Assembly (NCBI GenBank): GCA_937899645.1
Contig: CALCCD010000129.1
Location: 1-64,000 of the forward strand
Source of the DNA: an uncultured cyanobacterium
GTDB lineage: Bacteria; Cyanobacteriota; Cyanobacteriia; Cyanobacteriales; Geitlerinemataceae
Direction of reading: 5' to 3'
Length of the DNA stretch: 64,000 bases
Below, piece after piece: positions 12,841 through 45,250 of the stretch. The notes below the pieces were generated by a model, which saw only the letters and a program-made list of their open reading frames with translations, was not told the DNA's origin and did not search any database. Positions within the stretch are counted from its first letter, which is position 1, and every line of letters starts with the position of its first letter. A program made the translations under genes and the position numbers.

Positions 12841-13158
12841 CTAGTTCGATTGCTCCATACGCAGCCGACTCGACACTTTCCAACACTCGGCCAATAGATT
12901 GTGCCAGGGCATCAGTACAGACATCTCGACGCCCGCTTGGCAGCCCGTTGCCTCCAAGAGCATCTGAGAGGCGGAAACTTCCTCTTGGGCCTGAGTGACG
13001 CGGGCGAGCAGGTCAGCCTGCGCCTCTTCACCGAGAAAGTCGATCGTCTCACGCTCGAGTAGCGTACGAGAGCGCTCGAACCAATACTGAAAATCATCGA
13101 GCAGAGGCTCTAGGACGCTTTTGAGCAAACTGGGCTCGGGCAATTTGGGAGTATCCAT
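12841..13158 (-). CDS. DUF2605 protein
   Basis: A 105-residue soluble helical protein with LLKSVLEPLLDDFQYWFERSR near the N-terminus, an AQADLLARVTQAQEEV helix and a MPWHNLLAECW end. This matches DUF2605, restricted to cyanobacteria. It is upstream of DUF2973 on the same strand and likely co-transcribed. Function unknown. The region before its ATG contains a 12-bp palindrome that could be an operator. Confidence 0.78.
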   Translation of the reverse strand: MDTPKLPEPSLLKSVLEPLLDDFQYWFERSRTLLERETIDFLGEEAQADLLARVTQAQEEVSASQMLLEATGCQAGVEMSVLMPWHNLLAECWKVSSRLRMEQSN

Positions 13159-13739
13159 AATCTACTACTAGTCTACCGATGGATAACTAATGTTAACGCT
13201 GTTTACAATTGTTAACAATGCGGTTGTCCGATATTTGGCGGTGGACTCTCCTGCTGGCCGCCCCCTGCGGCAAATCGCCTGCACCTGGCGAACGGCTAGT
13301 TGCGTCGCGGGCATTGCGGGGAAGCCCGCTAAGCTCGATACGGTCGGTGCAGTCGTGTTGCTGCGGTGTAAAAGTCCGCTGAAACTTTCAGCCAAAAGCG
13401 AATGATGCGGCAGAGGGGCTGGCGGCGGATCTGACGAGAGCAGTGCCGGACAGCCGTGCGCGCGAACTGAACGTAGGTCTTCACGATCCTAATCTGTTCG
13501 GTAGCAACAGATACATTGGTTGCCATCATCTTAAGAGGTGTTATCAATTAACGCTAGAGCCTTTACGGGGAGTGCGCGACACGGCGAGGCAGTGGCGCAT
13601 CTAAAAGGTGCTGAAACCATTTTGAAGTTAAGGCTCCAGGCTCCGGGGAAGGGCTCCTCGAGTGGGGAACCTCGGCAAAATCGCAGGGCTCTGAACGAAT
13701 TTCAACCCTACTTCGAGCCTGCCACGATCGCGCCTCGAA
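13159..13739. other. Intergenic region with palindrome, no gene seen
   Basis: About 580 bases with no credible protein. ATTGTTAACAAT (13208-13219) is a perfect 12-bp palindrome 50 bases upstream of the DUF2605 start and is flanked by further GTTAAC words. Between about 13260 and 13420 several short GC hairpins occur (for example GCGGG and CCCGC near 13307-13331), so a structured RNA is possible, but I recognise no known class. Confidence 0.45.
13208..13219 (-). promoter_or_regulatory. 12-bp palindrome upstream of DUF2605/DUF2973
   Basis: ATTGTTAACAAT reads the same on both strands and is AT-rich, inside the likely promoter region of the DUF2605 gene. A GTTAAC word recurs about 20 bases closer to the gene. 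Looks like a dimeric regulator site; the regulator cannot be named. Confidence 0.35.
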
Positions 13740-32450: not shown

Positions 32451-33149
32451 ATGACCGAGCCGATCTCGATCGACTTTATTGAGGAAATAGCGCGTCAGTA
32501 TGGATACTGGGCCGTTTTTTTCGGCATCTCACTGGAAAACGCGGGGATTCCGCTGCCGGGAGAGACGATTACGATCGTTGGTGGCTTCCTGGCCGGTGAG
32601 GGCGAGCTGAAGTACGAAGGGGTGCTCGGTTGCGCGATCGCGGGAGCTATCTTAGGCGACAACTTCGGGTACTGGCTGGGCAAGACTGGCGGCTGGTCGC
32701 TGCTACTGCGGCTCGGGCGTCTGTTTCGCGTCGAGGAGTCGCGTTTGGAGATGCTGCGCGCGCAGTTTAGTGCCAATGCTGCCAAAGCAGTTTTTTTTGG
32801 GCGATTTGTGGCGCTGCTGCGCGTGTTCGCAGGGCCGCTGGCGGGGATTGCCCAGATGCCTTACGGCAGTTTTTTTCTCTGTAATGCAGCAGGAGCCGTG
32901 GTTTGGGCGCTGGTTATCGTGACGCTGGCATTTACGCTAGGGCAGATTATTCCGCTCGAGCAGCTCTTGGAATATATTTCCGAGTTTGGTTTTTGGGCGC
33001 TAGTTCTCGTCATCGTTGGGTTTGTGGCGATTCGCTGGCTAAAATCGCGGCATCCGCTTTCGGCAGAAGTTGGCGAGACGCAGGAGTTAACGGAAGCGAG
33101 CCATGAGGTAGCTTCTTCAGAGGTGACGCCGACTTCGGTGCGGGATTAG
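32451..33149 (+). CDS. DedA/SNARE-associated membrane protein
   Basis: A 232-residue DedA-family protein: NAGIPLPGETITIVGGFLAGEG near the N-terminus, GDNFGYWLGK, and FFGRFVALLRVFAGPLAGIAQMPY, with four to five membrane segments and a polar tail. Family members are lipid scramblases or proton-dependent flippases for phosphatidylglycerol or undecaprenyl phosphate. Codon usage is slightly richer in T than in neighbours. It precedes cysS by 79 bases on the same strand. Confidence 0.92.
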   Translation: MTEPISIDFIEEIARQYGYWAVFFGISLENAGIPLPGETITIVGGFLAGEGELKYEGVLGCAIAGAILGDNFGYWLGKTGGWSLLLRLGRLFRVEESRLEMLRAQFSANAAKAVFFGRFVALLRVFAGPLAGIAQMPYGSFFLCNAAGAVVWALVIVTLAFTLGQIIPLEQLLEYISEFGFWALVLVIVGFVAIRWLKSRHPLSAEVGETQELTEASHEVASSEVTPTSVRD

Positions 33150-33203
33150 GTCTTCTCGGTTGAAAGGAGCGCGATCGAGTTAGTCTAAGTAGACAAATTT
33201 CCG

Positions 33204-33328
33204 AGACCGTGACGCCACAGCCGACCCAATGTCCCTCGTTATCTACAACACGCAAACGCGCCAGAAAGAGCCTTTCACGACCCTGGAAGACGGCAAGGTC
33301 AAAATGTACTGCTGTGGCGTCACGGTCT
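33204..33328 (+). promoter_or_regulatory. 17-bp inverted repeat bridging the cysS leader and coding start
   Basis: AGACCGTGACGCCACAG (33204-33220) in the 5' leader is the exact reverse complement of CTGTGGCGTCACGGTCT (33312-33328), which codes the CCGVTVY zinc-site region of CysS. The start codon at 33229 lies inside the 91-base loop. Pairing in the mRNA would be very stable and could affect initiation or early elongation. Confidence 0.5.
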
Positions 33329-34671
33329 ACGATCTCTGCCACCTGGGGCATGCCCGCTCGTCGATCGCCTGGGACATCATCCGCCGCTACCTCACCTGGC
33401 GCGGCTACGACGTGCGCTACGTTCAGAATTTCACCGATATCGACGACAAAATCCTCAACCGCGCCCGTAAAGAAAACAGCTCGATGGAGGAAGTCTCGGA
33501 GAAATACATCGAGACCTTCTTCGAGGATATGCGCCGCCTTAACATCAAAGACGCCGACGAATACCCCCGCGCCACCGAACACGTCGAGCAGATCTGCGAC
33601 CTGATTCAAGCCTTAGTCGATAAAGGCATGGCCTACGCTTCTGGTGGTGATGTCTACTACGCCGTGCAGAAGTTTCCCGGCTACGGCAAGCTCTCTGGCC
33701 GCACGGAAGGCCAGATGCAGTCCGGCGCGAGCGGCCGCGTCAGTGCCGAAGGCGAGGGCGAACCGAAGAAACGTAACCCGTTCGACTTTGCACTTTGGAA
33801 AGGCGTTAAACCGGGCGAGCCGTTTTGGGAATCGCCTTGGGGCAAGGGTCGTCCGGGCTGGCACATCGAATGCTCGGCGATGATCCGATCGCGCCTCGGC
33901 GAGTCGATCGACATCCACGGTGGCGGCGGCGATCTGGTGTTTCCCCACCACGAAAACGAAATAGCCCAATCCGAAGGCGCGACGGGGAAGCCTCTGGCGC
34001 AATACTGGGCGCACAACGGCATGGTGCGCGTCAACGGCGAGAAGATGTCGAAGTCGCTGGGCAACTTCACGACGATCCGCGACCTGCTGGAAACCATCGA
34101 ACCGATGGTGGTGCGGCTGTTTATTTTGCAGGCGCAGTACCGCAAACCGCTGGACTTTACCGATGAGGCGATCGCGTCGGCGACGAGCGGTTGGCAGACC
34201 TTCTCGGAGGGACTGACCTTTGGCGATCGCTTCGGCGACAAGCTGGGTTGGGCAAGCGACGCGCCGCTCGAAACCCTGCCGGAAATCGCCGACAAGTTCC
34301 GCGAGGCGATGGACGACGACTTCAACACCTCGGCGGCGATGGCGGTGCTGTTCGAGATCGCCAAAGACCTGCGCCGCTGCGGCAACCTGTTGGTTCACGA
34401 CCAGCCGCTGGATATGGATGCGACAGCGCTCCAGAAACAGTGGGCGACGCTAGTGACGCTGGCGGACGTGCTCGGTTTGGAAGCTGTTGTTGAGGAGTCT
34501 GGCGCAGATGGCGGGCTGAGCGATGCGGATATCGAGGCGGCGATCGCCAACCGCAAGCAAGCCCGCGCCGATCGCGACTTTGCCGCCGCCGATCGCATCC
34601 GCGACGACCTCAAAGCTGCTGGTGTGACGCTCATCGACAAGCCCGACGGCACGGTCTTCGTACGCGAGTAG
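33229..34671 (+). CDS. cysS: Cysteinyl-tRNA synthetase
   Basis: A class I synthetase charging tRNA-Cys. 480 residues, normal. MYCCGVTVYD with the zinc-binding Cys, HLGHARSSIAW (HIGH equivalent), HIECSAM, GGGGDLVFPHHENEIAQSE and KMSKSLGNF. The C-terminal part is an acidic helical domain with the AIANRKQARADRDFAAADRIRDDL motif. A long perfect inverted repeat links its leader to codons about 28-34. Confidence 0.97.
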   Translation: MSLVIYNTQTRQKEPFTTLEDGKVKMYCCGVTVYDLCHLGHARSSIAWDIIRRYLTWRGYDVRYVQNFTDIDDKILNRARKENSSMEEVSEKYIETFFEDMRRLNIKDADEYPRATEHVEQICDLIQALVDKGMAYASGGDVYYAVQKFPGYGKLSGRTEGQMQSGASGRVSAEGEGEPKKRNPFDFALWKGVKPGEPFWESPWGKGRPGWHIECSAMIRSRLGESIDIHGGGGDLVFPHHENEIAQSEGATGKPLAQYWAHNGMVRVNGEKMSKSLGNFTTIRDLLETIEPMVVRLFILQAQYRKPLDFTDEAIASATSGWQTFSEGLTFGDRFGDKLGWASDAPLETLPEIADKFREAMDDDFNTSAAMAVLFEIAKDLRRCGNLLVHDQPLDMDATALQKQWATLVTLADVLGLEAVVEESGADGGLSDADIEAAIANRKQARADRDFAAADRIRDDLKAAGVTLIDKPDGTVFVRE

Positions 34672-45118: not shown

Positions 45119-45250
45119 GAGCACTCCACAAATATATTTGTCCAGAAGCCGCCAATGAAGGCTGAGCTTGTCGAAGCCTGGGTGTGACGCACTTCGACAA
45201 GCTCAGTGCTCGAATCCTGAATGCTGGACATTTATTTCCGTGGAGTGCTC
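45119..45250. repeat. MITE-like nested inverted repeat
   Basis: Outer arms GAGCACTCCAC (45119-45129) and GTGGAGTGCTC (45240-45250) are perfect, continued by weaker pairing and then TGTCCAG/CTGGACA. An inner perfect 15-bp stem, CTGAGCTTGTCGAAG (45162-45176) and CTTCGACAAGCTCAG (45192-45206), sits in the centre. About 132 bp, with no coding capacity. Confidence 0.8.

Follow-up and report, generated by a model that had tools for sequence, protein, structure and literature searches.

The leader of a cyanobacterial cysteinyl-tRNA synthetase gene (cysS) contains an exact reverse complement of the gene's own zinc-site codons, which raises the question of whether the helix that the two segments could form in the mRNA regulates cysS or is the by-product of a copying event. 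The most likely answer is a lineage-specific copying event of uncertain consequence, with partial support for the regulatory reading. The window referred to below is the whole stretch of 64,000 nucleotides that was analysed.

An inverted repeat around the cysS start codon

The segments AGACCGTGACGCCACAGC (33204-33221) and GCTGTGGCGTCACGGTCT (33311-33328) form an exact inverted repeat of 18 bp, paired at 18 of 18 positions without wobble or bulge and separated by a spacer of 89 nt. An earlier note on this DNA had described an exact repeat of 17 bp with a 91-nt loop; its exactness stands, while the length and loop do not, since the repeat is one base pair longer. The start codon (ATG at 33229) lies inside the loop, as that note had said. 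The features of the locus are as follows:

32451-33149, forward strand: gene for a DedA/VTT-domain membrane protein upstream of cysS, the same neighbour as in both same-genus genomes
33123-33130, forward strand: GTGACGCC in the 3' end of dedA, which repeats 8 nt from the middle of the leader arm in direct orientation, possibly by chance
33181-33186, forward strand: possible -10 box TAGTCT, aligning with TATTCT/TATCCT in the sister genomes
33204-33221, forward strand: leader arm of the 18-bp inverted repeat, at -25 to -8 of cysS
33229-34671, forward strand: cysS, cysteinyl-tRNA synthetase, 480 aa (Pfam tRNA-synt_1e, E=1.3e-135, and DALR_2), one copy found in the genome
33311-33328, forward strand: coding arm of the repeat, in the zinc-site motif, from the last two bases of the Cys28 codon to the first base of the Tyr34 codon

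The codons that the coding arm touches read CCGVTVY, inside the zinc-site motif MYCCGVTVYD. A genome search with the 13-base core of the arms returned only two sites in the 4.55-Mb genome, both of them the repeat arms, and an origin from a repeat element was rejected on that result. If TAGTCT acts as a -10 box, the mRNA would start a few bases before the leader arm, which would then lie near the mRNA 5' end; a consensus scan found no sigma-70 promoter.

The match is very unlikely to be fortuitous, as the earlier note had held. From base composition, about 4e-4 inverted pairs of 18 bp within 300 nt are expected per 64-kb window (0.03-0.04 per genome), and 4e-7 matches of this length between one leader and 200 nt of its own gene, such as the cysS leader and gene. 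In a scan of 1,217 ORFs (200 aa or longer) for leader/coding complementarity, one start besides cysS exceeds 12 bp, and it is located in a dispersed repeat; the next-best single-copy starts reach only 12 bp. These figures weigh against chance complementarity, in which the leader and synonymous sites would have drifted independently into a match that came to notice through the reading of many windows and genes. The windows scanned were indeed very numerous, and partial matches are already present in the sister leaders; on balance we consider this explanation improbable.

Stretches of the same genome totalling 1.42 Mb served as the background sample for inverted repeats. Longer pairs at similar spacing do occur in it, and those examined, a set that leaves aside a 32-bp pair on L185, belong to dispersed repeats or to a local repeat cluster. 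Mirror repeats of at least 17 bp with a spacer above 10 nt, taken as a control, number zero in the same 1.42 Mb. The L185 pair (13008-13162) is a perfect inverted repeat with a 91-nt spacer and the longest in the sequence scanned. A 16-bp single-copy repeat (L199:15493) was considered as a parallel case and set aside as not comparable, being situated between the ends of convergent genes. Elsewhere in the window, 45162-45206 is a hairpin of the dispersed element CTGAGCTTGTCGAAG, a REP-like repeat family whose identical 15-nt spacer recurs at at least nine places in the 1.42 Mb.

The earlier note had proposed a helix across the initiation region, and the folding predictions agree with it. The two arms alone give a predicted duplex of -37.7 kcal/mol, and for the 211-nt region the predicted fold has -72.2 kcal/mol (z -2.95), a stability matched by 0 of 200 shuffles. 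In the model the zone from -20 to -5 is 8% unpaired, against 50-56% in two sister species, so that, where the leader is transcribed, the predicted helix would cover the ribosome-docking zone at -25 to -8.

Comparison with relatives and origin of the leader arm

cysS and its leader were retrieved from relatives by whole-genome search. In two same-genus genomes the best cysS segment is 80-81% identical and the dedA-cysS order is kept. The coding arm is largely retained in both (15-16 of 18 bases), and where the leader arm would stand, both leaders read AGACGCTACTAACGTCATCC; the arm itself is absent. No pair has changed on both sides in this comparison. The covarying, conserved arms that the earlier note had looked to for support are missing in this genus, and the combination of a kept coding arm with an absent leader arm, found in both genomes, is the one that it had named beforehand as refuting its proposal. 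The predicted helix is not conserved in its own genus. Nor is the leader arm present in any other same-family cysS leader read, and across 391 genomes of the order the pattern GTGACNCCRCA-N75..105-TGYGGNGTNAC, a strict pattern in a single register that would miss weaker arms, occurs at cysS in none of the 390 others. Besides the window genome it matched one other place (in G180), which showed no sign of cysS.

The details of the alignment point to how the arm may have arisen. Two synonymous bases in the coding arm set the window species apart from both sisters (GGC and GTC versus GGT and GTG), and the leader arm matches them. The wobble-free match follows the species' own synonymous bases, the rest of the leader is diverging, and the sisters have no such match; on these grounds we read the repeat as a lineage-specific, recent inverted copy made by template switch, an explanation that we hold to be somewhat better than even. 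The whole dedA-cysS junction is remodelled, to judge from the alignments: the two genes are separated by 79 nt here (33150-33228) and by 195-248 nt in both same-genus genomes, where the C-terminal end of DedA is different as well.

Under the template-switch explanation, a replicating polymerase would have switched template and copied the zinc-site segment of cysS, in reverse complement, into the leader. The target stretch would already have been partly complementary to that segment, so that an imperfect inverted repeat would have become perfect in one step. When threaded on the structure of the window species, the sister leaders keep 11-12 of 18 pairs (6-7 broken) and share the AGAC edge, a count that is inflated by the ordinary homology of aligned columns. 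This partial complementarity could be a plausible starting quasi-palindrome; sister leader-site duplexes are no better than those of shuffled leaders. Once transcribed, the new leader would give an mRNA with an 18-bp helix hiding the docking zone (-25 to -8), which would probably lower or delay initiation unless translating ribosomes keep the coding arm open, and the cysS gene would tolerate it.

That hairpins can be created or perfected in one step by template switching is documented (Monttinen and Loytynoja 2022, PMC8794818), and 18-bp quasi-palindromes of E. coli are a well-studied site of its action (Klaric, Perr and Lovett 2020, PMC7202029). The cysS repeat resembles these cases in being a perfect inverted copy of a nearby segment (18 of 18 bp, 89 nt apart), in its absence from both same-genus genomes, which retain the source segment, and in the prior partial complementarity. 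It differs in its 89-nt spacing, which is longer than that of compact hairpins, and in that the event itself is one that we infer. Equally inferred are that the arm is transcribed, that translation is affected in any way and that the helix has no dedicated regulatory role. Against a single copy event, 10 of 18 bases in the region of the arm are still shared, ungapped, with the sister leaders, so that the change may have been stepwise.

An inverted copy could also have been pasted into the leader by an assembly or amplification artefact, and the genome is indeed a draft of 134 contigs. The repeat, however, lies deep inside an 86.9-kb contig, and the leader bases flanking the arm on both sides align to the sister genomes. 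Fold-back chimeras, moreover, usually produce long inversions, unlike this 18-nt patch. We regard an artefact as very improbable.

Possible control of cysS by cysteine supply

The regulatory alternative to a copying accident is an autoregulatory helix, in which the leader arm and the Cys-Cys codons close the initiation region and a scarcity of charged Cys-tRNA leads to stalling, opening of the helix and more cysS. A ribosome on the Cys28/Cys29 codons would occupy the coding arm, in line with the earlier note, and would open the helix, which makes the feedback idea physically sensible. In favour of such control stands the strong predicted helix over the docking zone, and against it the lack of conservation in the genus and family of the window species. 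A survey of 108 cysS leaders also speaks against it, as there is no mean tendency of leaders to pair with the zinc site (mean z about 0); the zinc-site window shows a weak excess, with 4 leaders below z -3 versus 0-2 in other windows. One further strong case (L063, -40 kcal/mol) was set aside, as its leader consists of the final coding stretch of the gene upstream and the pairing is weaker in its relatives. Taken with the evidence from a second genus given below, we consider an autoregulatory helix unlikely and cysteine-responsive feedback through the helix possible.

Several known systems offer points of comparison. The threonyl-tRNA synthetase gene of E. coli, thrS, is autoregulated through a translational operator of tRNA-like stem-loops bound by the synthetase itself. 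Both are synthetase genes whose own mRNA leader could limit initiation, but the structure predicted for cysS is a single leader-coding helix. T-box leaders control Firmicutes synthetase genes by amino-acid supply, the kind of control proposed for cysS, whereas the cysS region contains neither a T-box nor another relevant RNA family in an Rfam scan up to E=1, and a T-box leader was rejected on that result. In ribosome-mediated attenuation and in translational attenuation of the ermC type, a stalled ribosome changes which RNA helix forms, and it would likewise switch the cysS helix in the proposed scheme. The difference is that cysS lacks a leader peptide with Cys codons, so the sensing codons would be the gene's own; the one short frame within the 79-nt leader (TTG at 33160, MKGARSS) has no Cys codon, and leader-peptide attenuation was discarded on this ground. 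Among the titles and abstracts listed, none bore on control of cysS through its leader or on autoregulated synthetases in cyanobacteria.

The two readings carry different implications. As a copying accident, the repeat would show cleanly, in a bacterium, how a housekeeping gene can acquire a perfect long-range mRNA helix, probably in a single step. Were the helix in use, it would amount to a very simple sensor of supply: the amino acid's own codons in the synthetase gene would serve as the sensor and, at the same time, as one half of the lock. That would also suggest the repeated origin of such switches from inverted copies of coding sequence.

A leader arm in a second genus

A comparable arrangement was found in G045, a relative from another cyanobacterial genus, in which an 11-base exact match joins the leader to the Met-Tyr-Cys codons of cysS; this case is the best of about 50 relatives, and its significance is to be read with that selection. 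We read 26 genomes of the genus (L217-L242) and compared 17 distinct leaders. Most leaders have a TATAATAAATTA box (TATAAT) followed directly by [C/G]AGCAGTACATC, complementary to GATGTACTGCT(GT). The arm measures 11-13 bp, lies at about -33 to -21 of cysS and is complementary to the Met-Tyr-Cys-Cys codons, and its sequence is unrelated to the window arm. Because it directly follows the TATAAT box, it probably forms the extreme 5' end of the mRNA. L236 retains the arm despite a different upstream sequence.

Its pattern of change favours autoregulation in part. Of the 17 distinct leaders, 16 have an intact 11-pair core, with changes from A-U to G-U, C-G to U-G and G-C to G-U, and one leader (L241) has a double compensatory change, in which both bases of a G-C pair have changed to give A-U. 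Variability in the core is 0.037, as against 0.059 elsewhere in the leader and 0.16 at fourfold sites, which implies constraint on the whole leader and only slightly stronger constraint on the arm. On the other side, covariation in the genus does not rise above shuffles (153 of 500), a recognisable arm is lost or replaced in 8 of the 26 genomes, and the arm is absent from those other genera of the family whose leaders were readable. A phylum-wide pattern search for this arm gave 0 matches and carries little weight, since the pattern's first base excluded most of the genus's own sampled leaders.

A leader/zinc-site helix of separate origin that persists in another genus hints that selection may keep such helices, which tells against a mere accident in the window species. 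The G045 genus thereby raises the probability of the feedback idea without establishing it. A broader generalisation would be that some cyanobacterial cysS genes are governed by a 5'-end leader arm that pairs with their own tandem Cys codons, that ribosomes starved at those codons open the initiation region, and that the arm has arisen at least twice (18 bp and 11-13 bp), perhaps via template-switch copies; we give this little credence at present.

Beyond these two genera, a similar leader match of 8 bp occurs in a few relatives of L057; among 14 windows compared in the L057 family, that of the zinc site is the most negative by a slight margin. Two observations concern cysS gene content. Three genomes of the G045 genus (G014, G303 and G342; 94-99% complete) have no match to the CysS N-terminus, and G014 has none to the full protein, which may reflect an assembly gap, disruption or loss. 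In the L057 family, G680, G685, G686, G694, G701, G706, G707 and G711 each show a further cysS-like match beside the first, with 61-67% identity to the query N-terminus, a possible second CysS.
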